Shown: positions 12,486 to 55,203 of the stretch, one piece after another | How the letters are laid out: every line of letters begins with the position of its first letter | Numbering within the stretch: position 1 is the first letter of the stretch | Origin: Thermincola ferriacetica | GTDB lineage: Bacteria; Bacillota; Thermincolia; Thermincolales; Thermincolaceae | Direction of reading: 5' to 3' | NCBI RefSeq assembly: GCF_001263415.1 | Contig: NZ_LGTE01000001.1 | Coordinates: 62,001-126,000, forward strand | DNA length: 64,000 nt | Program-made: the position numbers and the translations under genes | Notes under the pieces: generated by a model | What the model was told of the DNA's origin: nothing | The model's database searches: none | What the model saw: the letters and a program-made list of their open reading frames with translations, nothing else

Positions 12486-14330
12486 TTGAGAAAGTACCTA
12501 TTTCTGGTCAGTATGGCACTGGGCATATATTTGTTTTCTTTTGGCGGTTTTGCCGGTGCTGTTTCCGGTGACTGTAGCAAATGTCACGGAGACCTGGTAA
12601 CGAGTTTTGAGCTGGATGCACCGAATCCTGAATTGACATGTGCGGTGTGCCATAACCATTACGCTATGAATGCCAAGCACCCTTATCCCAATTGGACGGC
12701 ACAGTATGTTACAGGCATAGGATATTTTAAGAGTGCAGACAGTGTGTTAACAGGGCCGCCGGCCATACACAATTATCACAACGGTTCGAATACTCCGGCC
12801 GGTACCAACAGTTGCGGTAAGTGTCACAGGGCAGTCAAATGTGAATCTTGTCATCAAAATGTCAAACATAAACAACATGGAAGCTCAGAAATAACCAGTT
12901 TCCCTGCCTATGTTGTTGCTGACGGAAAAGCCTATGCTTCGCAACAGCTATCCTGTGCAGCTTCAAATTGCCACAGGTTTTACTCACCTGGTATTGTACG
13001 CACTAATTCCAACGGGACACAACTGTGTGTAAATTGCCACAGCACAGATAAGAGTGGGCATAATGAAACGAATTTGGGGCCTTTGCATGATTCTTTCTCT
13101 TCCACCTTGAATATCGGGGTCACTAATTATCAGGTTTCGTGTGAAGGTTGTCATGCTGCTACATTATCGGCCGAACATAAAAAAGCGGCCGGGAGGCTGG
13201 GTCAACCGGAGGACAATGAATGTGGCTACTGTCACGGCGCCTCCGCTCAATCAACTGTTGCGGCTGAAGTTAGTGATATCAAAACAGCAAATGCACAAAT
13301 TAAAGATCCGAAATTGAAGGCTGAAAACCGCGGCTGTGTGAAATGCCATTTTAATATTGCTGTACTACCGGCAAGACCTTCCGAGCATTTGACTTATCAT
13401 ATAGCTGTTAACAGTAATAACTTAAGTGTTGTTGGAGGGCCGCATAAAGACTGTAATACCTGCCATGCTAACGTTAAATTGTTTTCTACTATAAGCAATT
13501 TGGCCAGAACGCCCATAGATCAACGGAAATATGATTGTTTTGTGTGTCATAACCAACAATTTAATTTAGCTCCGGTACATAAAGCAGGACTTGATGGACA
13601 GTTGTCTGACGTAAATGAGGTGCACTATGGCTGTAATACGTGTCACACTCCGGGTACTAAGCCGTCAGAGAAAGTAGCGCAAATTATTGATGAGTTGAAA
13701 AATGGGGCTGAAGGCTATGAGTGTGTGGATTGCCACACCGGGGATGTGCTTGATGCAGGACATGCAGGAAAAATTGATGCGAATTGTACCAAGACTTGTC
13801 ATAAAAGCAGTTTAACGGAAGAACATTTGAATAATCCCGTTACGCAGGCAAATAATCAAGATAATCCTTTAACATGTAACACGTGTCATGCGAATCCGGA
13901 CGTAAAATTTGTAATAGCTATAGGAGATACTGATTGTGCCGCCTGCCATTACCACGCTCATAATTTAAATATAGTTCAGCAGGTTCCGGCAAACATACCA
14001 TTGTATCCAGGATTTGAGTGGTCTACTCCTCAAAATGCAGAAATTTGGCTGGGCGAACCATGGTTTGATGTGACTTATCAGGCTAATTCCAAACGGATTG
14101 TATCAAACAGGCGCTCAGATGTTAATTCAGAACAGATAAAGGACTTTTACTTGACAAATATGACTACTCTGGGGTGGATGTCTTTATCTGAAGAAACTAT
14201 AAATAGAACTATAATACTCAAATTCAACAGTGGCAAACGATATGCGTCTGTTATGATTTACGATTCCGAGGTTCCGGAAGGGCAAACAACAGTTCCGGCA
14301 GGGATAAAAATTGACATATTTTACAAATAA
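12486..14330 (+). CDS. Secreted multihaem cytochrome (16 haem motifs) with a C-terminal non-haem domain
   Basis: 614 residues. TTG 12486 after GGGAGG (12473-12478) gives a clean signal peptide ending near AGAVSG. There are fourteen CXXCH motifs plus two non-canonical ones: CAASNCH (CX4CH, ~residue 158) and CTKTCH (CX3CH, ~residue 440). Residues ~15-330 closely resemble the start of the 59-haem protein encoded next (shared CHNHYAMNA, HPYP, GIGYFKS, GPPAIH), so the genes are paralogues. The last ~120 residues have no Cys and form a domain I do not recognise. Codon third positions are AT-rich, unlike most of the next gene. Confidence 0.9.
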   Translation: MRKYLFLVSMALGIYLFSFGGFAGAVSGDCSKCHGDLVTSFELDAPNPELTCAVCHNHYAMNAKHPYPNWTAQYVTGIGYFKSADSVLTGPPAIHNYHNGSNTPAGTNSCGKCHRAVKCESCHQNVKHKQHGSSEITSFPAYVVADGKAYASQQLSCAASNCHRFYSPGIVRTNSNGTQLCVNCHSTDKSGHNETNLGPLHDSFSSTLNIGVTNYQVSCEGCHAATLSAEHKKAAGRLGQPEDNECGYCHGASAQSTVAAEVSDIKTANAQIKDPKLKAENRGCVKCHFNIAVLPARPSEHLTYHIAVNSNNLSVVGGPHKDCNTCHANVKLFSTISNLARTPIDQRKYDCFVCHNQQFNLAPVHKAGLDGQLSDVNEVHYGCNTCHTPGTKPSEKVAQIIDELKNGAEGYECVDCHTGDVLDAGHAGKIDANCTKTCHKSSLTEEHLNNPVTQANNQDNPLTCNTCHANPDVKFVIAIGDTDCAACHYHAHNLNIVQQVPANIPLYPGFEWSTPQNAEIWLGEPWFDVTYQANSKRIVSNRRSDVNSEQIKDFYLTNMTTLGWMSLSEETINRTIILKFNSGKRYASVMIYDSEVPEGQTTVPAGIKIDIFYK

Positions 14331-14398: not shown

Positions 14399-14765
14399 GT
14401 GTTTACTTAAATGTATTTATATACAAGTATTATTGGAGCCAGAGCTACTAAACTATGAAACCTACTTAAGATATAAGGGGCGTGATAACAGGCATATTTT
14501 ATACGAAAATAATATTTAAGTAATTAGGAAAAACGGGCGTTTTGAGGGAAATAAGTCGAAAAAATTAGCGATATCGAGTAATTTCCAGAATTTAAAAGGT
14601 ATTGTAACATAAATCCAGTTAAGATAAGTTGAGAAATCAAGCGATAAATATTATGATATAAAAGTGGCTAAATATGTAATTTTCTAATGTAGGGCTTTTA
14701 TGAAGGAGGTGAAATCAGGAGTGCAGAAGGTAACTGAAAAAATATTAAAAAAAGGAGGTGAAATC
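14399..14765 (+). other. AT-rich leader region of the giant cytochrome gene
   Basis: No gene is supported up to ~14700. At the end the sequence AAGGAGGTGAAATC occurs twice, at 14703-14716 and 14753-14765-adjacent. The first overlaps an in-frame ATG (14700) and precedes GTG 14722; the second precedes the chosen start GTG 14766. The duplicated ribosome site allows a short N-terminal extension of the giant protein, but only the downstream start gives a normal signal peptide. Confidence 0.5.
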
Positions 14766-17700
14766 GTGTATAAAAGAAAAGTGGTTTTATTAATTATGTT
14801 GCTTGTGGGTATTATGGGTTATGTCGCAGTTGAACCTGCAGCAGCGCAGACTACAACTGATTGCACAAACTGCCATGGAGATGTAGTGAGCAATTTTGAT
14901 TTAGCGCCGCCGGTTCCGCAAAACACCTGTGCAATTTGCCATAATCATTATGCAATGAATGCTAACCATCCTTACCCAAGTTGGACGGCAGTATATGTTG
15001 ATGGAATAGGGTATTTTAAATCGCCGGACAGTGTTACAGTAGGACCACCAGCCATCCACTCATATCATAACGGTATGAATACTCCTGCATTAACCAGCAG
15101 TTGTGCGAAGTGCCACAAAGCTGTAAACTGTGAAACATGTCACCAACCAGTGAATCACAAAGAACATGGCAGCACACAGGTGACTTCTTATCCTTCTTTT
15201 GAGGTAGCTACAGGTACCAGTTATGTTTCTCAGACATTAACATGTGCCACATCTCAATGCCATAAGTTTTACACAACTGGTGGTGTCCTAAGAACCAACC
15301 CCGACGGCACTCAGCTCTGCCTTAACTGCCACAGCACCGACAAATCAGGTCACACCGAAGCACAGCTTGCCACCGCCCACAGTACTACCTTTACCCAAAC
15401 ACTTATTCCTGAATCCAACAACGAACCCATTAACTGTACGAGCTGTCACGATAGTTATCTGAACAGGGAACACTTCAACAACAGCAACGACTGTACCACC
15501 TGCCACAGTTCCACTACGCCTGCTGAGGTAAAAGCTGTGGTTGACAGCGCCAAAGGTGTTGAGGCCAACCGGGCCTGTGAAAAGTGCCACTTTAACATGG
15601 CCGTGCTGCCGACACGCCCGTTGAGTCACCCGTTGTACCACGTGGCTGACAAGAGCAACGGCCTCAGTGTGGTCGGAGGACCGCATACAAGCTGTAATAC
15701 CTGCCATGACAGGGCTGAAATTCAGGGTACTATCAAAACCCTCGCCTACAGTAGTGTAAAAGACTACTCCTGTTTAGACTGTCATACGGGCGGAACCAAT
15801 CCGAAGGCTCCGGTGCACAAGGCCTATTACAACGGCCAGCCAATGGCCATTATGGACGTACATACCAGTTGCGCTGTTTGTCACACTCCCGGCACCACCT
15901 ATGCGGCCAAGGTTGAAACTATCGCTACCGCATTGAAGGCTAACCCAGCAGGAAGTTACTCTTGTACTGAGTGCCATACCGGTACTGCCGGCCACAAGGC
16001 TACTTTTGAGGGAGTAACCTATAACGACACGACAGCCTTCCACCTGGCATGTACTGATTGTCACAACGATACTTACAAGAGTACTATAGCCAGCCTGAAA
16101 GAACAGGTTAAACTCGGGTTAAGCTACGATTGTGCGGCCTGCCACAGCGCCGGCGCCACCAAGGGGGTATCACCTTATTACCCGGTACACCAAGCTGGAA
16201 ATGATGCCGTTGTCGGGTTCCACCCGGCATCCTGCAACACCTGTCACGGAGTGGTTAACGGCAAGTACAACATAAACCTGGATGGTCTCAGGTCCAAACT
16301 GCCTGCGCCGGGATACGCTTGTACTGACTGTCATAATGGGACAGTGACGGAAAGCGGTCTGGTGGCTAACGCTCCTTACCACAAGGCGCAGGATGACAAG
16401 GGCACCGTTTATGTGACCACAGACTTTCACCCGACCTGTGGAACCTGTCACGACAGCGCCGATGCCAATGTGGTAAATACCATCAACACCAAGTCCGGCA
16501 CCACCACGCCATATCTGTGCGCTGACTGCCATACCGGCGGACTGGCTGCCCTGCACAATGCCAAGTGGACCAATGGAACGGCTTACGAGACCACCCAGTT
16601 CCATAAGGATTGTGCCCAGTGCCATGCCAACACCAATCAGGCAGTAACCGATAAAATTCACAGTCTGAGCGGCAGTACCACAGGCTATAACTGTACCGAT
16701 TGCCACAACGGCCAAGTAGTTCCGGCTGCCAGGCACGCAGCTAAATTGAACGCCAATGACGCTGCTGAGCAGGAGACAACCCAGTACCACCTGAAGTTAT
16801 CGGCAACTGCGGCAGAGTCGTGCTTCCAGTGCCATAACAATGAACTGGTGGCTGCTGATATGACCGCTATTTTCTCCGCGGTGAAGAGTGGAAACGGCTA
16901 CCTGTGTACTGACTGCCATAATAACGGTACCAGCGCGCCTTATACGCCCAATCACTCAGCCGTACTTGACGCGGAGAGGTTCGACACCTTAACCCTGCAT
17001 CCGGCCTGTACCACCTGCCATACTACGGCAGCAGATACCAACATCAGGAATCTGAAGGGGCAGACAGGTTACGAGTGTCAGGTATGTCACGGTGACGTTT
17101 CAGCCAAGCACACCAGTCCGACAGTACTGACCGGTGGTATGATTACCTGTGCATGGTGCCACAACAGTGATTTGGTAACGACACACCTGAATCCGCCCGT
17201 GCGATTAGCCAAAACCATGCAATGTACCACCTGTCACGGAGCGGCATCACCGGTTAAAACTCAAGTGCAGCTTGGCCAGAAGGAATGTGCCAACTGCCAT
17301 GACGGCGTAACTATCGACGGCATTCACCCAGGAAAACAATATGTGCCCAAGCATACGGCCGTATTCCCGACCTTCCTGCCCGAATACAGCCCGAACTGCG
17401 TGAACTGCCATAGCGGTTCAACACCGGGTACAGTGCCGACTATTGATTCTTTGCACTCGGCGTACTTGGTCGGCTGTTCGGAATGCCACAACGATACTAC
17501 CTTTAAGCCGGCTGTAACCAGTCTGAGCACCAACTGTGCCGGCTGCCATGACAATGCCGTCAAACCTGGCATGGATATGACCGAAACCCACAAGGCATTC
17601 CATAACGCCAATACTGCCAAGTACCCGGCCACAGCCGCATGTCTGGAATGCCATGCCAAGGACGCCACAGTTGACGGCCAGAGCTTACTGGGAGTGCATA

Positions 17701-20700
17701 AAAAGAACCCAGCTTCCACCGTCACCTGCGACACCTGCCACGGCGCTAATGCCCGGGCAGAAGTCAAGGCGGCAGTGGCGGCAAATGACATAAGCTGCCA
17801 GGCTTGTCATGCTAATGTAAGCCACAACCACGATGTAAAAGCATATGAAGCCAATACAGATGTAAACTGTGTCAACTGCCATGCCACCGACAGCACCACC
17901 AAGACTACCGAGCTGAGCAAGCTGCACAGTAAATACGGGAAAGATTGTTCAGCATGTCACACCGCGCCCTTTGAGACAGCGGTGATTGCCAAAGACGGCA
18001 CTATCGACATGCTGAAGAACGGTACCGAACCAATTTACTGCAGTACGTGCCATAACGGCGATACAGCCAACGGTTACCCGGCAACCAGGGAAACCAGGCA
18101 CGCGCCAGAACACAAGGCCAGTCAGAGTGAAGCAGTAACCTGCAGCACCTGCCATGACGGGACAACAGTACAGGGGTCCTTCAATATCGCCGCCAATACG
18201 CCCGTTGACGTGACTGGAATCCACAGCAGCAATAACTGCAATACCTGTCATGATAACGCCAACGTACAGGGAGTGATCAGCGCCAAGGTTGGTCTGGCCA
18301 ACGGTACATACAACTGTACCGAATGCCATGACGGGACCAAGGCGAAAACCCATAACAAGCTGCATACAGTAACAGCGTTTACCGATGACGGGGCTACCGG
18401 CTGTACCAACTGCCACAATGCCGACGTAACTGTGCAGCACAGTGAGAGCTTCAAGGCAGGGCTGAACTGCGATACCTGCCACGGCACAAACGCAGCCAAC
18501 GTACTGCCCAATACGCCCGTTGTAATCAAGAATAACCTGAGCACCAATGCTAGCCGGACAGGATATACCTGTACCGATTGCCACGGTAATGTGTCTCATC
18601 AGCATAAAGTGGCCAAGACTGGTTACCAGGCCATGCCTGCGGTTGAATGTTCCACCTGCCACGCCACCAATACGGCCACAGGCGAGGCGGAGCTGTACGA
18701 ACTGCACAGTAAAGCCGGTATACCCAACTTTGGCTGTGCCACATGCCATAACAGCACCTTCGAAGGCGTGGGCAAACCCATTTCCGGTGACAAGAACCTG
18801 GATATGATGAGAAATGGCGCGCCCATTTACTGTACCGACTGCCATAACGGCAGCCTGACCAATACAGTGGATTCGGGCCATCAGCCAGAGCATACCGCCA
18901 AGCATAGCGCTACCGGCATGAGCTGTGACAGTTGTCATGGATTCACTGCTGCTGCAGGGCAGGCTGTTGACATTAAGTCAACAGATATCCACCCTGGCGG
19001 ATGTAATACCTGCCACAGTGGGGCTTCAAATACTCCGGCTCAGCAGAAGGCTATTGTTATCATAGCCAATGGTGTTGGAAAGGCCAATCCTGAGTATAAC
19101 TGCGAGGACTGCCATGGCCAAATTCACCTGGGCTGGGATGCCAAGCACAAGCCGACATTCCCTGCCGACCCGAATATGAACTGTGCCAACTGCCACGACA
19201 ATTACCTGCCGGCAGAGCATACCAAGGCACTGACCGCAGCAACGGGAATTGGTTACGAAATATTCCGGGCTACTTCCAGCAGCGGACCCTGGACTTCCAT
19301 CGGTAAGACAACAGCCACCGCTTTTGCCGATACCGGCTTAGCGGCTGATACAACTTACTACTATAAAGTCCGGGCCTATGACGGCAAGCCCAATTACTCG
19401 GCAGACAGCGCTGTGGTGAGTGTCAGGACCCTGCCTGCCACATCCGTCAGCATAGTTAATCCCGATTCAGCGCGCTATGCTTCCGGTAATAACGGTGAGT
19501 CATCCAACGATCCGTCATCCACCACAGACGTATTATCCAAGCTGACCGATAACAGTAACAGTACCTACGTCACAGTAAAAGAAAACGGCAGCAGCGACCA
19601 GTATATTTTTGTCCGGGTGGCAGAGGAAGCACAGAAATATGCCAAGGTTGAACTGAAGCTCAGTGTGCGGTACTACAACGGCACCAACCTGAGAATATAC
19701 CCTTATGCCACCGATACCGGAATTTATACCAGCAGCACCGGTTATTACGTCAACGGTCCTGTAAGCTCCAGCTCATCTTCATTTATCACGGAGACTATCG
19801 ATGTTACAAAAGCAGCCCAGGCCATGAGCGGGTTCGGCTGGATGAAGTTCCGGATTAAGCCCGATCCCGGCAAGTCCGCCAGCGTCTATATTGCCAACGT
19901 GCAGCTTGTGCTGACCCAGAATACCGCTTCCGGAGGCAGCGTCAGCAATCCTCCGGGCGACCTGAGTCCGAACAGCGGTGACACAGTGGCGCCGTCCGTA
20001 CCCACAGGGCTGACTGCGCGGGCAGATTACTACGACCGAGTAGACCTGTCATGGACCGCCTCGACTGATACCGGAGGCCCCGGCAGCGAAGCCCAGACCT
20101 GTGTATTATGCCACAGCAGTACGGCACCCGACCGGGTGAAGACGGCCGTGCGGAACAAGAACGCCAACTGCAGCGCCTGCCATGACATTCACGGAGATAT
20201 AGCCACAGTGCATACCGCACCCGATTTTGGCTTTACCTCCTACAACTGGAACTGCAGCAAGTGCCACAGCGCCGTATTGACTGATGAACATGCCAAACGA
20301 GGTCTGAACTGTGCCACCTGCCATGACAGCGCCAAAGCCAAAGTCAGGGCAGCAATAGACAGTACAGCCACCGACGGCAGCAACCGGAAGTGCAGCAACT
20401 GCCATACCGGGACAGCCGATGGAGCGGGAGCTATTCATACCGATATAGCTACACCGCACCTGACCGGGATTTTCCCGACGGCTACCGATGCTGACTGCCT
20501 GAACTGTCATGATACCCAGAAGGCAGAATTTGCCGATACCAGGGCAGCTTACCACGTAGTGGCCGGTCTGAGCAGCAAGGCCAGTGGTTACGGCAAGTAT
20601 ATCAGCCCCTGGACAGCGACCAGCGTGGTTGGCTGTAAGGGTTGCCACGGCGACAACAATGACGGCAAGGCACAGCAAGCAAACATCCTGAAACGGCCGT

Positions 20701-21047
20701 ACACATATACTGCCAACTCAGGACAGGCCGATATGCTCTGCTTCCTTTGCCACGACCGGGCCACATACGGTTACGGCGGGAGTTCAAGCGGTACTTCAGG
20801 TTTCAGCGAGGGCGGAAAGAACCTGCACAATATTGGTGACCACAAAGTCAACGGCGTTGTGCAGTGTTCCTGGTGTCATGCTGCAGTACCGCACGGTACC
20901 GCGAAGGCGCACCTGATTGTGACCAAGTCTGACCCGAATTCCGCAGGCAACCTGCTGACGAACTTTACCCATCCGGCCAGTGGAAACTACAGCAAGAGAA
21001 GTTGCGGTTCGGACAGCAAGCAGTGTGATGACCACAAGGGTTATTAA
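14766..21047 (+). CDS. Giant secreted multihaem cytochrome, 59 haem-binding motifs
   Basis: 2093 residues from GTG 14766 (AAAGGAGGTG just upstream), with a signal peptide ending near EPAAAQ. I count 58 CXXCH motifs and one CX4CH (CATSQCH). About 50 lie in the first ~1480 residues and nine after ~1775, giving one haem per ~30 residues. Between them, residues ~1494-1772 have no haem motif; this segment holds half of a fibronectin-III domain, a ~150-residue beta-sandwich-like region and the other half of a fibronectin-III domain. No LPXTG, SLH or C-terminal membrane segment is seen. Role inferred: long-range electron transfer at the cell surface. The first ~175 codons are AT-rich at third positions and the rest GC-rich. 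No terminator hairpin is within the gene; one follows at 21114. Confidence 0.95.
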   Translation: MYKRKVVLLIMLLVGIMGYVAVEPAAAQTTTDCTNCHGDVVSNFDLAPPVPQNTCAICHNHYAMNANHPYPSWTAVYVDGIGYFKSPDSVTVGPPAIHSYHNGMNTPALTSSCAKCHKAVNCETCHQPVNHKEHGSTQVTSYPSFEVATGTSYVSQTLTCATSQCHKFYTTGGVLRTNPDGTQLCLNCHSTDKSGHTEAQLATAHSTTFTQTLIPESNNEPINCTSCHDSYLNREHFNNSNDCTTCHSSTTPAEVKAVVDSAKGVEANRACEKCHFNMAVLPTRPLSHPLYHVADKSNGLSVVGGPHTSCNTCHDRAEIQGTIKTLAYSSVKDYSCLDCHTGGTNPKAPVHKAYYNGQPMAIMDVHTSCAVCHTPGTTYAAKVETIATALKANPAGSYSCTECHTGTAGHKATFEGVTYNDTTAFHLACTDCHNDTYKSTIASLKEQVKLGLSYDCAACHSAGATKGVSPYYPVHQAGNDAVVGFHPASCNTCHGVVNGKYNINLDGLRSKLPAPGYACTDCHNGTVTESGLVANAPYHKAQDDKGTVYVTTDFHPTCGTCHDSADANVVNTINTKSGTTTPYLCADCHTGGLAALHNAKWTNGTAYETTQFHKDCAQCHANTNQAVTDKIHSLSGSTTGYNCTDCHNGQVVPAARHAAKLNANDAAEQETTQYHLKLSATAAESCFQCHNNELVAADMTAIFSAVKSGNGYLCTDCHNNGTSAPYTPNHSAVLDAERFDTLTLHPACTTCHTTAADTNIRNLKGQTGYECQVCHGDVSAKHTSPTVLTGGMITCAWCHNSDLVTTHLNPPVRLAKTMQCTTCHGAASPVKTQVQLGQKECANCHDGVTIDGIHPGKQYVPKHTAVFPTFLPEYSPNCVNCHSGSTPGTVPTIDSLHSAYLVGCSECHNDTTFKPAVTSLSTNCAGCHDNAVKPGMDMTETHKAFHNANTAKYPATAACLECHAKDATVDGQSLLGVHKKNPASTVTCDTCHGANARAEVKAAVAANDISCQACHANVSHNHDVKAYEANTDVNCVNCHATDSTTKTTELSKLHSKYGKDCSACHTAPFETAVIAKDGTIDMLKNGTEPIYCSTCHNGDTANGYPATRETRHAPEHKASQSEAVTCSTCHDGTTVQGSFNIAANTPVDVTGIHSSNNCNTCHDNANVQGVISAKVGLANGTYNCTECHDGTKAKTHNKLHTVTAFTDDGATGCTNCHNADVTVQHSESFKAGLNCDTCHGTNAANVLPNTPVVIKNNLSTNASRTGYTCTDCHGNVSHQHKVAKTGYQAMPAVECSTCHATNTATGEAELYELHSKAGIPNFGCATCHNSTFEGVGKPISGDKNLDMMRNGAPIYCTDCHNGSLTNTVDSGHQPEHTAKHSATGMSCDSCHGFTAAAGQAVDIKSTDIHPGGCNTCHSGASNTPAQQKAIVIIANGVGKANPEYNCEDCHGQIHLGWDAKHKPTFPADPNMNCANCHDNYLPAEHTKALTAATGIGYEIFRATSSSGPWTSIGKTTATAFADTGLAADTTYYYKVRAYDGKPNYSADSAVVSVRTLPATSVSIVNPDSARYASGNNGESSNDPSSTTDVLSKLTDNSNSTYVTVKENGSSDQYIFVRVAEEAQKYAKVELKLSVRYYNGTNLRIYPYATDTGIYTSSTGYYVNGPVSSSSSSFITETIDVTKAAQAMSGFGWMKFRIKPDPGKSASVYIANVQLVLTQNTASGGSVSNPPGDLSPNSGDTVAPSVPTGLTARADYYDRVDLSWTASTDTGGPGSEAQTCVLCHSSTAPDRVKTAVRNKNANCSACHDIHGDIATVHTAPDFGFTSYNWNCSKCHSAVLTDEHAKRGLNCATCHDSAKAKVRAAIDSTATDGSNRKCSNCHTGTADGAGAIHTDIATPHLTGIFPTATDADCLNCHDTQKAEFADTRAAYHVVAGLSSKASGYGKYISPWTATSVVGCKGCHGDNNDGKAQQANILKRPYTYTANSGQADMLCFLCHDRATYGYGGSSSGTSGFSEGGKNLHNIGDHKVNGVVQCSWCHAAVPHGTAKAHLIVTKSDPNSAGNLLTNFTHPASGNYSKRSCGSDSKQCDDHKGY

Positions 21048-23208: not shown

Positions 23209-26136
23209 ATGATCAGAAAGATTTTGTTGCTGACGCCCCCCTATCATACAGGAATTATAGAGATTACCGGAAACTGGCCTCCTTTGAACCTTGTTTACCT
23301 GGCGGGGTCTTTGCGCCAGGCCGGATTTGAACTTGCAATTTATGATGTTATGACTTTACGCCATGACCTGCAGGATATAGAAAAATACGTTGCTGCCAAC
23401 AATCCTGACGCGGTGTTGATTGGCGCCTATACGGCAAGTATTAACGCGGCTCTTGATACGCTGGCTGTTGTGAAAAAGGTCAATCCCTCCGTTATCACAG
23501 TTCTGGGAGGAGTACACGCCAGCTTCTGTTTTGAAGAAATACTTAGAAACAATCGAGCCGTTGACTTCGTTGTCCGGGGCGAGGGAGAGATTACCGCAGT
23601 CGAGTTGTTTAGGTCCCTGAACGAAAGTACGGACCTGACCCTAGTGCAGGGCCTGGCTTTTTTACAGGGCGACAGATTGGTGATTACCGGAGAGAGGCCC
23701 TTAATTGACGACCTTGACAGTTTACTGCCGGCCTGGGATTTAATAGATTGGAATAATTATTACTATAAAATAACTAACCGGCGGTTGGGGCTGATGAGTT
23801 CGTCGAGGGGATGCCCCCACCGGTGCAGTTTTTGTTCGCAACATCTTTTTTGGCGGGGTACATACAGAGAAAGGTCGCCGCAAAACTTTGTATCAGAAGT
23901 TGAGGTTTTATATAAACAATACGGTGTCCGCATGATTATGTTGGCCGATGAATATACAACTTATAATCGCCGGCGGTGGGAACAAATTCTGGACTTGCTT
24001 ATAGAAAAAAAGATGGACCTTCACTTCAGTATGGAGACCAGGGTGGAAGATGTCCTGCGGGACCGGGATATCCTGTGGAAATACAGGCAGGCCGGAGTAA
24101 TGCACGTGTATATTGGTGTTGAATCGGTATTCCAGAGTTCCCTGGACAGGTACAATAAAGGACTGGAGGCGGCAAATTCCAGGGAAGCCATAAAACTTCT
24201 GGATGAGGCCGGCATTATTACCGAATGTTCTTTTATATCGGGCAACCTGGAAGAAACCCCGGACACCATGCAGCAAACCCTGCAAAAAGCCCTGGAATTC
24301 AACCCCGATTTGGCGCACTTCCTGCTGATCACGCCGTGGCCGTACACACCGCTGTATGAAGAATTGAAACCGCACATTATTGAGCACGATCTGAGCAAAT
24401 ACCATTTCGTTTATCCCATTGTCAAGCCTTTGCAGATGGACGTTACCGAACTTTGGGATAACTTGATTAACTGTTTCCGGGTCTTTTACATGGAGAAGGT
24501 AAAGCAATGCCTGGCTTTGCCGCCGGGGTTCAAAAGAGACTACATGCTTAATTCGATTCAGATTATGCACCGGGAATTTTTTGTGGAAAACTTTGGCAAG
24601 CAGACAATTAAGCTGCCAGAGGAAATGGGCTATGAGATAGAAAGGCTTTTATCCGAGAATATGGGGGGAATTGATATGGAAAGGAAAAAATATGCTGTGG
24701 ATTCACCGATGGTTCAGGAATTGGACCGGCAAATTATGGAGTTTATTGAAAAAGGAATAGACAACCACGATGAAGAAACCTTTAATCGGCTGGCCTTAGA
24801 GGAATTTGAAATCCAGTTTCATGCGAACGCGAACTATCGCGAATACTGCCTGAAACAGGGCAAAACTCCGGAGAATGTAAAACGTTGGGATGAAATTCCG
24901 GCCATTCCGACCCAGGCGTTCAAAGAAGCAGTTATTGCATCATTTCCCCTGGAAGAGGCAGAGCTGGCTTTATTGACCAGCGGCACCAGCGATCCGCGGA
25001 TGAAAGGCAAAATATACCGTGACAAGCGTAGCATGGAGATGATTATTAAAAGCAACTATTTGTTGACGAAACATTTTGTTTTTCCCGACGTGGACAAAAT
25101 GCGCATTCTGCTGCTGGTACCTTCGCCCAAAGTAGCCCCCGCCATGGCTATGGCCTTTGGGCTGAACCGGTTAAAAGAAACCTTTGGCACGGAAGACAGT
25201 ATGTATCTTATTACCCCCGAAGGGTTCAATGCAGAAGCAATGGTGGAAGCGCTGAGGAAGGCAGAAAGTACAGGAGAACCCCTTGCCCTTGTGGGAGCAA
25301 CTTCCGGTTTTGTCTATTTCTTCAATTATTGTAAGGAAAACAACCTGACCTTTAAGCTGCCGCCGAAATCAAGGATTTGCGACGGCGGTGGTTACCAGGG
25401 AACCTTCGGAAGTTGCACGCGGGAAGAATTTTACGCCGGATGTGAAAAATATTTTGGCCTGTCCGGTGAATACTGCGTAAATATCCTTGGTATGAGTGAG
25501 AGCGGCACCAATTACTTTGATAATACGTTAAGAGAAAAACTGCTGGGTTTACCCATTACGGAAAGGCACAAGGTCAGCCTACCATGGACGAGAACCCTGG
25601 TTGTCGGACCGCGCACAGGCCAGCGGCTGCCCAAAGGAGAGATAGGTTTAATCAGGCACTACGACCTAACCAACAGGGCTACAGTTTTTGCCGTACAGAC
25701 TGATAATCTTGGTTATGAAACTGATGGCGGATTTGAGATTGTTGGCCGGGCGGGGGGAAAAATACCCGGATTTGGACTGGAACCAACCAGTGTGAAAGAC
25801 TGGATCCTCGCAGGCCACCGCCAGGGCGCTGCCGGATGTTCTGCTGCCACCGCCGGTTTTATCTATAGTCGGGGAAATCATCCTTCCATGCCACACAGCC
25901 ACCCGTGTTCTACGGTGGCCGATGAGATGCTGAGGGCCCACAGCCACCCGTGTTCCACGGTGGCTGATGAGATGCTGAGGGCCCACAGCCACCCGTGTTC
26001 TACGGTGGCTGATGAGATGCTGAGGGCCCACAGCCACCCGTGTTCCACGGTGGCTGATGAGATGCTGAGGGCCCACAGCCACTTGTGTTCAACTGTAGCT
26101 GACGAGATGATCATGAAAGGAAAGCCAAAGGAATAG
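23209..26136 (+). CDS. B12-binding-type radical SAM protein fused to a LuxE/PaaK-like acyl-activating domain, with HSHPC tandem repeats
   Basis: 975 residues in one uninterrupted frame. Residues ~1-140 look like a cobalamin-binding domain (LLTPPYH, LGGVHASF). A radical SAM core follows with CPHRCSFC (Cys202, 206, 209) up to ~480. Residues ~500-870 resemble acyl-protein synthetase LuxE/phenylacetate-CoA ligase-type adenylating enzymes (LLTSGTSDPRMKGK; DGGGYQG; NILGMSESG). The tail from residue 896 is five copies of a 15-residue unit, HSHPCSTVADEMLRA. An internal ATG at ~24676 preceded by GGGGGGAATT could also start the second half alone. Reaction and substrate are unknown. It lies between ResB/CcsA and an NHL/cytochrome pair, so a role near cytochrome or membrane maturation is possible but unproven. 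Confidence 0.85.
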   Translation: MIRKILLLTPPYHTGIIEITGNWPPLNLVYLAGSLRQAGFELAIYDVMTLRHDLQDIEKYVAANNPDAVLIGAYTASINAALDTLAVVKKVNPSVITVLGGVHASFCFEEILRNNRAVDFVVRGEGEITAVELFRSLNESTDLTLVQGLAFLQGDRLVITGERPLIDDLDSLLPAWDLIDWNNYYYKITNRRLGLMSSSRGCPHRCSFCSQHLFWRGTYRERSPQNFVSEVEVLYKQYGVRMIMLADEYTTYNRRRWEQILDLLIEKKMDLHFSMETRVEDVLRDRDILWKYRQAGVMHVYIGVESVFQSSLDRYNKGLEAANSREAIKLLDEAGIITECSFISGNLEETPDTMQQTLQKALEFNPDLAHFLLITPWPYTPLYEELKPHIIEHDLSKYHFVYPIVKPLQMDVTELWDNLINCFRVFYMEKVKQCLALPPGFKRDYMLNSIQIMHREFFVENFGKQTIKLPEEMGYEIERLLSENMGGIDMERKKYAVDSPMVQELDRQIMEFIEKGIDNHDEETFNRLALEEFEIQFHANANYREYCLKQGKTPENVKRWDEIPAIPTQAFKEAVIASFPLEEAELALLTSGTSDPRMKGKIYRDKRSMEMIIKSNYLLTKHFVFPDVDKMRILLLVPSPKVAPAMAMAFGLNRLKETFGTEDSMYLITPEGFNAEAMVEALRKAESTGEPLALVGATSGFVYFFNYCKENNLTFKLPPKSRICDGGGYQGTFGSCTREEFYAGCEKYFGLSGEYCVNILGMSESGTNYFDNTLREKLLGLPITERHKVSLPWTRTLVVGPRTGQRLPKGEIGLIRHYDLTNRATVFAVQTDNLGYETDGGFEIVGRAGGKIPGFGLEPTSVKDWILAGHRQGAAGCSAATAGFIYSRGNHPSMPHSHPCSTVADEMLRAHSHPCSTVADEMLRAHSHPCSTVADEMLRAHSHPCSTVADEMLRAHSHLCSTVADEMIMKGKPKE
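25894..26118 (+). repeat. Five tandem 45-bp repeats inside the radical SAM/LuxE gene
   Basis: Units start at 25894, 25939, 25984, 26029 and 26074. Units 2 and 4 are identical; units 1 and 3 differ from them by one or two silent changes; unit 5 is diverged. Each encodes HSHPCSTVADEMLRA, so the array is in frame and probably a recent expansion that can change copy number. Confidence 0.95.
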
Positions 26137-26387: not shown

Positions 26388-27359
26388 ATGAAGCAGCAAA
26401 TTTTGAAATGGGTTGGAGCAATAGTCATCTTAGCAACTGTGGGGACCTATTGGGGCTTGAAACAGGTCCAGGGTTATTTCCTGCAGGCGGATTTGAAATT
26501 TGTCAGACATGGGATGGTAACAGCACAGAGAATTAATACGGTGAATTTGGATTTGGAGCGGCCTATGGGAGTTGCCGCAAAAGGTGATTTATTGGCTGTA
26601 GCCGATGCAGGAAAACAAAAGGTTATAATTTTAAATACGAAAAATAAAAAAAGGACTGAAATAATTCAGGCCGGGGACCTTGGCAGGTTTTCTTACCCTG
26701 TGGACCTGGTTTTTGGCCCAAAGGGATTATTATATGTAGCCGACCTGTATAAAGGCCGGGTATTTGCTTTTGATCTCAACGGAAAATTACACAAAATATA
26801 TCCTTCAACTGCTCCTGGGGAAGAGGTTACTGCCATCAGCCCGACTGCCATTGCCTTTGATAAAAAGGGCAATCTTTACGTAACTGATGTAGGCAGGCAG
26901 AGGGTAGCCGTTTTTGACCCTGCAGGCAGATTTCTTTTCAGCTTTGGTCAAGAAGGCACAGGGAAAGGAGAATTTCTTTTCCCGAACGGTATTGCGGTAG
27001 ATACTGCCGGTAATAAAGTTTATGTTGCCGATACAAATAATTTACGCATCCAGGTATTTAACGAAAAAGGGAAATTTGAAACGGTTTTCCCGATGCCGCA
27101 AGGTATCCGCCTTTCTGCTCCCAGGGGGCTGACCATAACCGGGAAAAAGGAATTATTGTTTGTTGATGCCTTGGCTAACCAAATATACTTTATTAATCTT
27201 AAAAGCAGAACAACCAACGTGGTTGAATTAAGTGCAGGGATGGCATTTCCCAACGATATTACAGGGAATGGACGGAAATTCTTCGTAGCTGACCGGGGAA
27301 ACAAAAGGTTGATATCCTTTACCATTAACTCTGGTGAGGTGAAAAAACATGAAGAGTAA
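26388..27359 (+). CDS. Membrane-anchored NHL-repeat beta-propeller protein (second)
   Basis: 323 residues with an N-terminal membrane helix (~residues 7-27) and six NHL-like blades (for example LYVADLYKGRVFAFDLNGKLH, VYVADTNNLRIQVFNEKGKFE, FFVADRGNKRLISF). Same architecture as the protein encoded at 10156. Its end overlaps the start of the downstream cytochrome gene by 11 bases, so translation of the two is coupled. Role inferred as scaffold or docking protein for the co-encoded cytochrome; no active-site residues are visible. Confidence 0.88.
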   Translation: MKQQILKWVGAIVILATVGTYWGLKQVQGYFLQADLKFVRHGMVTAQRINTVNLDLERPMGVAAKGDLLAVADAGKQKVIILNTKNKKRTEIIQAGDLGRFSYPVDLVFGPKGLLYVADLYKGRVFAFDLNGKLHKIYPSTAPGEEVTAISPTAIAFDKKGNLYVTDVGRQRVAVFDPAGRFLFSFGQEGTGKGEFLFPNGIAVDTAGNKVYVADTNNLRIQVFNEKGKFETVFPMPQGIRLSAPRGLTITGKKELLFVDALANQIYFINLKSRTTNVVELSAGMAFPNDITGNGRKFFVADRGNKRLISFTINSGEVKKHEE

Positions 27360-29238
27360 AAGACTTGGCCTAACCGGATTACTGATTGCGGTGGTAACCG
27401 GTTCGTTTGGTTTTTTTACAGTTTCTTCCGCCTGGGCCGCGCCCAGTGCCCCTGTATACGTCTATGCAAAAGGAATCAGTAGCTCAGAAATAGGCATTAA
27501 CTGGACATATGTATCTGGGGCACAGGGTTATTATATTTACCGTAGCACCACGGAAACGGGTGCTTACGAGAAAATTGGCCAGACTACGGGGGCCGATGCA
27601 ACCTATTATGTGGATAAGGACGCTGATTATAACACTCCAGGTATCCAGCCAATAGGGGCTTCTACCGAGTATTTTTATAAAGTGGCTGCCTACGACGGTA
27701 CCGGCCAGTCGGCCTTAAGCGGTGTGCAGGTCTTTACTTATACCAATCAGAACGGCCAGAGTATCCGCGAGGTCCTTTCCAGAGGAAAGACTTTGCCCGC
27801 CCAGCCTCCCGGGGGGGTTACCATAACCGATAACCATGACGGAACAGTTAAAATTTCCTGGAATGCATCTGCAGAGCCCAATGTCAGAGGGTACAATATT
27901 TACCGCGCCGACAGCAGTGGGGGAACCTTTGTAAAACTTAACAGCGGCCTGGTAACTGCTACAGATTATACTGATAATGTTTCATTCTTCAGGGACTATT
28001 ATTATACAGTAGCGGCTATTGATGATAAGGACCAGGAAGGAATCAGGTCAGCGGAAATTTGGATTAAACCCCAGGCTAATCCGGTTGCGAATGTTCCGCA
28101 CGTCAAATTTCAGCAGGATGCCAAGGAATGCGCCTATTGTCACGATTCCCATTCGGCATCAGGACAGGATTTATTGACTAAGGTTTCCGAGGCGGAAGTA
28201 TGTTTTGTCTGCCATGATGGTACCGGTAGCAAAAATGCCATCAATCAGGAGTTTAATGGGAACTATCCTTCCAAACACCCTGTGGGGCAAAACGGTTTGT
28301 CCTGTGCAAGCTGCCACGATGCGCACCTGGATTCAAAAGCTGTTGATTTAAGCGGAAACAGGCTGTATCCTGCTATATTGCGCCCCGTTTCGATAAACGG
28401 AAATATGGTTTACAAGGGTAACGAACAGTGTTATAAATGCCATGGTACCGGTTCGACTTTAAAAGGCGGCGATCATAAGGCTTCCTTTGAATCCAGTGTG
28501 CACAATTTAAATATGGCCAATCCGCCGTCAGGCACCGAAATAAAATGCATATCCTGCCATGAACCCCATGGCGCGGCAAATGCAAACTTAAAAAATTACA
28601 GAGATGAAAACTTCTGTTTAGCTTGTCATAGTTCCAATCAGGCTTCTGCGGCGCCTGATATATACAAAAAATTTACTGCAGGGAATGATAGTTACACCAG
28701 GCATGATGTGTTGGGGACTGACCGGCAAAAATCAGGAGCAAGTTTAGGTTGTATAAACTGCCACAACCCACATAATGTGACTGCGGAAAGAAAAGTAACC
28801 GACCCGGACAACCCTTCACCGAGCAGTCTCTGGACAGGCTCCAGGAATGATTTCTGTTTAAAATGTCACGACGGTACCTTTCCAACGGATACCCAGACAC
28901 AGCCATATGCGCCGGGTGTCGGTTCGGGTACAAGGACTTTAATCAATATTAAAAACTACAGCAATTACCATTCCCGGTTTGATTGTGTTGTCTGTCATGA
29001 TCCGCATGGTAGCATAAACAGCTACAGTTTAAAGACCGAAACCACTTCCAATACCGGAGTAAATAAGATTGGCCTGCTAACTTATAGTTGGATCTATCAA
29101 AATAACGGCCAGCCGGCTCTAGGGGTGGACGCAAGATTCTTCTGCAACAGTTGTCATGGACCCTCAAACGGCCATATTAACAGCCAGAGTTTCCCGACGA
29201 ATTGTTTCAGGTGTCACAGGCACGATGGTAAATTCTAG
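27349..29238 (+). CDS. Secreted 11-haem cytochrome with two N-terminal fibronectin-III domains
   Basis: 629 residues. A signal peptide (~residues 1-30, ending SSAWA) is followed by two complete FN3-like domains at ~32-135 and ~150-245 (motifs INWTYVSGAQGYYIYRSTT and ISWNASAEPNVRGYNIYRA). Eleven CXXCH motifs of the doubled-CXXCH type follow, several ending D/E/N-PH. FN3 domains are common spacers or polysaccharide/protein contacts in surface proteins. Translationally coupled to the preceding NHL gene. The FN3 domains here are intact, which contrasts with the split FN3 in the giant cytochrome. Confidence 0.92.
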   Translation: MKSKRLGLTGLLIAVVTGSFGFFTVSSAWAAPSAPVYVYAKGISSSEIGINWTYVSGAQGYYIYRSTTETGAYEKIGQTTGADATYYVDKDADYNTPGIQPIGASTEYFYKVAAYDGTGQSALSGVQVFTYTNQNGQSIREVLSRGKTLPAQPPGGVTITDNHDGTVKISWNASAEPNVRGYNIYRADSSGGTFVKLNSGLVTATDYTDNVSFFRDYYYTVAAIDDKDQEGIRSAEIWIKPQANPVANVPHVKFQQDAKECAYCHDSHSASGQDLLTKVSEAEVCFVCHDGTGSKNAINQEFNGNYPSKHPVGQNGLSCASCHDAHLDSKAVDLSGNRLYPAILRPVSINGNMVYKGNEQCYKCHGTGSTLKGGDHKASFESSVHNLNMANPPSGTEIKCISCHEPHGAANANLKNYRDENFCLACHSSNQASAAPDIYKKFTAGNDSYTRHDVLGTDRQKSGASLGCINCHNPHNVTAERKVTDPDNPSPSSLWTGSRNDFCLKCHDGTFPTDTQTQPYAPGVGSGTRTLINIKNYSNYHSRFDCVVCHDPHGSINSYSLKTETTSNTGVNKIGLLTYSWIYQNNGQPALGVDARFFCNSCHGPSNGHINSQSFPTNCFRCHRHDGKF

Positions 29239-54802: not shown

Positions 54803-54880
54803 ATGTGGAGTTATCAGTAAGCTGTAAGCTGTAAGCTGTAAGCACTGTTAACTACCAACTGTTAACTTTCAACTAATAAA
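54803..54880. repeat. Short tandem repeats between tRNA-Gln and tRNA-Tyr
   Basis: CTGTAAG is repeated three times (~54823-54842), then ACTGTTAACTACCA and ACTGTTAACTTTCA follow. It belongs to the same AACTGTTAACT-type family as the longer array at 54973-55118. Confidence 0.8.
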
Positions 54881-54966
54881 TGGTGGAGGGAGAAGGATTC
54901 GAACCTTCGAAGGCTGTGCCGGCAGATTTACAGTCTGCTCCCTTTGACCAACTCGGGCATCCCTCC
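54881..54966 (-). tRNA. tRNA-Tyr (anticodon GTA)
   Basis: Minus strand, 86 nt, CCA encoded. Acceptor GGAGGGA/TCCCTCC, anticodon loop CTGTAAA between GCAGA and TCTGC, long variable arm, T arm GAAGGTTCGAATCCTTC. Confidence 0.95.
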
Positions 54967-54972
54967 GTGAAT

Positions 54973-55118
54973 AGCAGTTGTTAGTTAACAGTTATTAGTT
55001 GGCAGTTATTAGTTAACAGTTATTAGTTAACAGTTATTAGTTGACAGTTATTAGTTGATAGTACTAACTATAAACTATTGACTGTTAACTGTAAACTGTA
55101 AACTGTTGACTGTTAACT
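54973..55118. repeat. Array of ~14-bp tandem repeats between tRNA-Tyr and tRNA-Asp
   Basis: Six units of CAGTTATTAGTTAA type (~54975-55060) are followed by the complementary-looking series GACTGTTAACTGTAAACTGTAAACTG (~55078-55110). The two halves can pair into a long hairpin. There are no unique spacers, so it is not a CRISPR array. Confidence 0.85.
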
Positions 55119-55125
55119 AAAATAC

Positions 55126-55203
55126 TGGCGGAGCAGACGGGATTCGAACCCGCGACCTCCGGCGTGACAGGCCGGCATCCTAGACCGACTAGACCACTGC
55201 TCC
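55126..55203 (-). tRNA. tRNA-Asp (anticodon GTC)
   Basis: Minus strand, 78 nt, CCA encoded. Acceptor GGAGCAG/CTGCTCC, anticodon loop CTGTCAC between CCGGC and GCCGG, T arm GCGGGTTCGAATCCCGT. First gene of the tRNA-Asp/Tyr/Gln transcript. Confidence 0.95.

Follow-up and report, generated by a model that had tools for sequence, protein, structure and literature searches.

Background

The closest structural precedent found for the module described here is MXRA8, whose double Ig ectodomain has the strand order CC'C''-DE-FG-H-AB (PMC8470474). As in our module, the first structural Ig domain of MXRA8 has strands A and B after strand G, a break between B and C and an additional element in the G-A connection, there a strand; yet MXRA8 reaches this order by a swap between two complete Ig domains, whereas the module consists of one A-B part and one C-G part, belongs to the fibronectin type III (FN3) fold and carries a whole domain in between (PMC8470474). 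The double Ig fold of CD19, with its inverse Ig domain, likewise makes an Ig-type fold from parts in reversed order, but the halves are exchanged between two Ig domains, there is no inserted domain and the protein is a vertebrate receptor (PMC8470474). Naturally circularly permuted PDZ domains, cited in PMC4862688, resemble the module in being a natural permutation of a common protein module, and differ from it in their fold and in not being inserted into a haem wire. In simulations, the FN3 domain TNfn3 was stable in circularly permuted forms (PMC4862688).

A 58-haem protein has been reported from Thermincola ferriacetica (PMC7096707), and its likeness to the protein studied here lies in the equal number of haem motifs. 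The part of the literature that was covered yielded neither a description of a non-haem module in that 58-haem cytochrome nor a report of a permuted FN3 domain in any cytochrome. Domain insertion and circular permutation are each known as kinds of rearrangement; within the same partial coverage, no report of their combination in the present form was found.

The giant cytochrome and its interrupted haem repeat

The window, that is, the whole stretch of DNA analysed, comprises 64,000 nucleotides of T. ferriacetica with a G+C content of 45.5%. It encodes a giant c-type cytochrome whose Pfam score of 262.7 bits (Cytochrome_C7, Cytochrom_c3_2) places it among the multihaem cytochromes c. It is not a member of the OmcA/MtrC decahaem family, since it reaches 68.9 bits with NCBIfam TIGR03507, for which the cut-off is 209.3. 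Two smaller multihaem cytochromes are encoded 5' of the gene and ResB- and ResC-type cytochrome assembly genes 3' of it. The upstream cytochrome at 12486-14330 has the head region of the giant in common (orthologous loci L114-L116). The features discussed below are the following:

14700..21047, + strand: giant multihaem c-type cytochrome of 2115 aa with 58 CxxCH motifs (open reading frame; 27 Cytochrome_C7 stretches)
15435..15533, + strand: intact comparison repeat, CTSCHDSYLNREH-6 aa-CTTCHSSTTPAEVK (gap comparison)
19182..19220, + strand: haem site CANCHDNYLPAEH, 5' half of the interrupted haem repeat, aa 1495-1507 (sequence)
19221..20099, + strand: whole inserted module, 293 aa long where the intact repeats have a loop of 6 residues (gap comparison)
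19245..19433, + strand: FN3 strands C, C', E, F and G, second part of the fold and first in sequence, aa 1516-1578 (Pfam fn3 positions 31-73 of 84; AlphaFold2 pLDDT ~97)
19446..19922, + strand: beta-sandwich domain of ~150 aa without family match, aa ~1583-1741 (profile and sequence searches; AlphaFold2 strands)
19923..19979, + strand: flexible linker from the sandwich to FN3 strand A (orthologue comparison; pLDDT <50 in part)
19980..20078, + strand: FN3 strands A and B, first part of the fold and last in sequence, aa 1761-1793 (fn3 positions 3-24 of 84 in orthologue G059; AlphaFold2 pLDDT 88-94)
20100..20135, + strand: haem site CVLCHSSTAPDR (CVLCH, C1801), 3' half of the interrupted repeat (matches CTTCHSSTTPAEVK of the intact repeat)

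An earlier note on this DNA had described two haem sites separated by a non-haem segment with FN3 halves at its ends, and every one of these elements is present at the place given. The uninterrupted repeat that it had cited for comparison (~15440-15530) was located at 15435-15533, where CTTCHSSTTPAEVK matches CVLCHSSTAPDR. From H1507 to C1801 (CVLCHSST) there are 293 residues, whereas two intact repeats, those at aa 246 and aa 1852, have 6, and the intact haem repeats in general have 6-14 at the equivalent place; the gaps between haem sites of the giant otherwise reach 58 residues at most, and their median is 24. The GC and GC3 of the insert are similar to those of its host, so there is no sign of a recent arrival.

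The intact repeats, with their 6-14 residues, and a homologue without the insert identify this as a domain insertion. This homologue, detected by BLAST in genome G285, is a 414-aa protein with 10 haems that corresponds to the head (aa 73-395, 29%) and the tail (aa 1824-2112, 40%) of the giant, joined by one uninterrupted repeat. A homologue of the tail in G006 also has uninterrupted repeats. That the insertion was clean, as had been proposed, agrees with the 6-residue loops of the intact repeats and with the 10-haem homologue, but a full-length orthologue missing only the module was not found: in G008, the orthologous tail is present and the contig stops before the module site. The same junctions would also result if an FN3-sandwich-FN3 surface protein had received haem repeats within its FN3 domains, instead of the haem array receiving the module. 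Yet the haem array runs on at either side of the module, a spacing of 6 residues separates these sites in the intact repeats and a haem-only homologue has both head and tail in common with the giant, which makes this direction of insertion extremely improbable.

Other parts of the window bear on the setting of the gene. A second multihaem cytochrome (27349-29238) has two N-terminal segments that read as FN3-like, in normal order, with no Pfam detection at E 1e-5. Like the giant, FN3-containing multihaem cytochromes such as this one are secreted proteins that bear FN3-like segments as well as haems; unlike the module, the segments of 27349-29238 keep the normal order and lie outside the haem repeats. 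A single open reading frame at 23209-26136 combines B12-binding, radical SAM and LuxE-like acyl-protein synthetase domains, and its 3' end contains a 45-bp tandem repeat (25894-26109; 4.8 copies, 94% matches) that reads in frame as copies of AHSHPCSTVADEMLR. Tandem repeats of 7, 14 and 21 bp are clustered at 54817-55127, where there is no long open reading frame.

Profile evidence for a permuted FN3 domain

The C-G half of the window protein matches Pfam fn3 positions 31-73 of 84 and the A-B half, in the G059 orthologue, positions 3-24; the two halves are complementary with zero overlap and follow each other in the order of a circular permutation, 31-73 first and 3-24 last. As encoded, the window protein obtains 15.0-17.4 bits, below the Pfam gathering score for fn3 (PF00041), which is 25 bits. 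The C-G half without its A-B half scores 17.4 bits in the window, 14.1 in G009, 26.3 in G059 and 22.0 in G002, and rejoining the halves at the B-C loop raises these values to 27.0, 24.6, 45.0 and 34.3, respectively, a gain of 10-19 bits in all four proteins. The gathering score is thus reached only once the halves are rejoined (27.0 in the window, 45.0 and 34.3), G009 remaining slightly under it at 24.6.

A profile built from 155 linear FN3 domains only was used to compare the rejoined domain with 400 control joins per protein, 200 of them made with randomly drawn segments of that protein and 200 with shuffled A-B sequences. The rejoined domain scores 88.0 bits in the window, 76.2 in G009, 64.8 in G002 and 82.1 in G059, the best control joins being 75.7, 64.6, 53.1 and 61.9, respectively, so that it surpasses 400 of 400 controls in each protein. 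The proposal that joining the end of the insert to its start gives one complete FN3 domain is supported by these scores. In the four orthologues, FN3 core residues are invariant over both halves (the tyrosines in strands C and F, the leucine in the E-F region and the tryptophan in strand B), and an alignment of 33 natural tandem-FN3 fragments places both halves in register. In the loci examined, 24 FN3 hits begin at or after B-C; those outside the orthologues are weak or diverged partial matches, with no evident permuted FN3 among them.

Predicted structure and pairing of the halves

AlphaFold2 was given residues 1491-1813 of the window protein with the alignment of the 33 fragments, each made up of strands C-G of one FN3 domain followed by A-B of the next, so that its halves come from neighbouring domains. 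The pLDDT is ~97 for C-G, 88-94 for A-B, moderate (~65-80) for the sandwich core and below 50 in the linkers. The pairing of the halves was read from the strand assignments of the models; the two sheets of the FN3 fold are A-B-E and C'-C-F-G. The full model has all seven FN3 strands at their proper places, including strand E (aa 1541-1545) as a hydrogen-bonded strand. In a C-G-only model, run without alignment, strand E is missing and the other strands of this half occupy identical residues. By prediction, then, one strand is paired only if both halves are there. The sole partner of strand E in an FN3 domain is strand B; the pairing of E in the full model therefore implies, indirectly, that strand B of the C-terminal half is docked on the C-G half in the model. 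The structure prediction that the earlier note had called for accordingly finds both halves confident and E partnered only when A-B is present, the C-G-only control having been run without alignment. A Foldseek search against the PDB, which depends on strand order, gave poor TM scores.

The order seen here is exactly that of a stretch taken from FN3 domains in tandem, and the halves might thus be two incomplete remnants of an FN3-sandwich-FN3 segment that lost its outer halves, the rest serving as linkers without a joint fold. Nevertheless, the core residues of both halves are kept across 38-67% identity, the rejoined domain scores above all controls, the A-B hairpin is predicted with high confidence (88-94) although its flanks fall below 50, and a partner is required for strand E; such remnants are very unlikely. 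Alternatively, the A-B half of one cytochrome could complete the C-G half of the next one and cross-link the proteins into a filament. This domain swap has Ig precedents in the AB strands of MXRA8 and the halves of CD2 (PMC8470474), and the sequence and monomer model do not strictly tell it apart from self-closure. Yet the ~19-26-residue linker and the sandwich together give the chain enough length to close on itself, and the AlphaFold2 monomer appears to close the fold, for which reasons a swap is considered unlikely, and we infer that the two halves fold together within the same chain.

Distribution and history of the module

A genome search found the module in four further genomes, with identities to the window of 67% (G009), 41% (G013 and G059) and 38% (G002); in all, there are only four distinct orthologues, one of them from an incomplete genome. 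An exact 8-mer scan of genome contigs had returned FN3 relatives only, and a search of plasmids an FN3-half match only. All hosts of the module are giant cytochromes with 49-73 CxxCH motifs (67, 73 and 49 in orthologues of the giant). The permuted order and the haem pair are identical in the five genomes, window included, which span four genera and three families; NYLPxEH of the CANCHDNYLPAEH haem site is kept in all orthologues and so is a sandwich-to-A linker of ~19-26 aa. The earlier note had pointed out that orthologues with two complete FN3 domains at this place would speak against a permutation; none exists among them, and G009, G002, G013 and G059 show the same split. The permuted arrangement is old. 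The genome of the window is a draft in 78 contigs, which could raise the suspicion of an assembly or sequencing artefact, but the order is repeated in independent assemblies, including that of G059 in 2 contigs; this excludes an assembly error and leaves an artefact with a negligible probability.

Searches of Pfam, NCBIfam and PDB sequences gave no significant match for the ~150-aa sandwich, which, outside the orthologues of the module, is absent from 399 genomes drawn from the phylum. An assignment to CBM96/DNRLRE (PF24517) was not supported, as the Pfam scan gave no match and hhalign a probability of 41% over 40 columns.

The history of the module was compared with that of its host by quartet tests. 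For the insert, the window groups with G009 and G002 with G059 (alternatives, p-AU ~2e-6), whereas the N-terminal 490 residues of the giant support the window with G002 and reject the window with G009 (p 6e-6), although these trees have four sequences each and the N-terminal repeats are possibly misaligned or converted. ResB supports G002 with G009. Inside the insert, 43 informative sites unite the window with G009 and 0 unite it with G002; the flanks have 14 and 16 such sites, respectively (Fisher p 3e-8), and the near flanks by themselves do not discriminate between the two topologies. A single pattern is common to the sandwich and the two FN3 halves, which indicates that the module was moved or replaced as a unit, and it thus appears to have been exchanged between lineages in this form. 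The upstream cytochrome gene (12486-14330) places the window with G009, as does the insert and unlike the N-terminal part of the giant, which suggests that other parts of the locus were exchanged too; parts of the locus formed by 12486-14330 and the giant gene appear to have differing histories.

Discussion

The best explanation of these observations, to which we give a probability of roughly 0.78, is that a single FN3 domain, opened at its B-C loop by circular permutation and bearing the sandwich domain between strands G and A, makes up the insert and serves as a side adaptor that leaves the haem chain uninterrupted. The ends of an FN3 domain in normal order lie at opposite poles. In the permuted domain, the new ends would be side by side at the pole of the B-C loop, and the haem chain would in consequence enter and leave the module at one point. 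Judging from this geometry, the haems at aa 1495 and 1801 could remain neighbours within electron-transfer range, while an FN3 domain in normal order at the same place would separate them by tens of angstroms and interrupt the wire. The short link from G to the sandwich and the ~19-26-residue linker from the sandwich to A fit this arrangement because the chain has to cover the distance between the far and the near pole on its way back. Attached after strand G, the sandwich would face outward and be presented sideways from a haem wire of the cell envelope, where, by inference, it probably holds the cytochrome to the cell wall, the S-layer or the surface of a partner.

As to its origin, the module may derive from an array of FN3 and sandwich domains, either as a stretch bounded by the B-C loops of two successive FN3 domains or as its excised circle. 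This stretch would have entered the loop between two haems and later been swapped among the orthologues as a unit. A more general possibility, about which we are doubtful, is a plug-in format in which the permuted FN3 serves as a socket for any domain on the haem chain, electron transfer being unbroken and the plug being exchanged by recombination.

That a side module is conserved at a single haem pair gives a hint as to where the giant cytochrome may attach. The module would also show how a domain can join a haem wire without parting its haems, and it provides a natural circularly permuted version of FN3, a scaffold much used in engineering, as a ready format for domain insertion.
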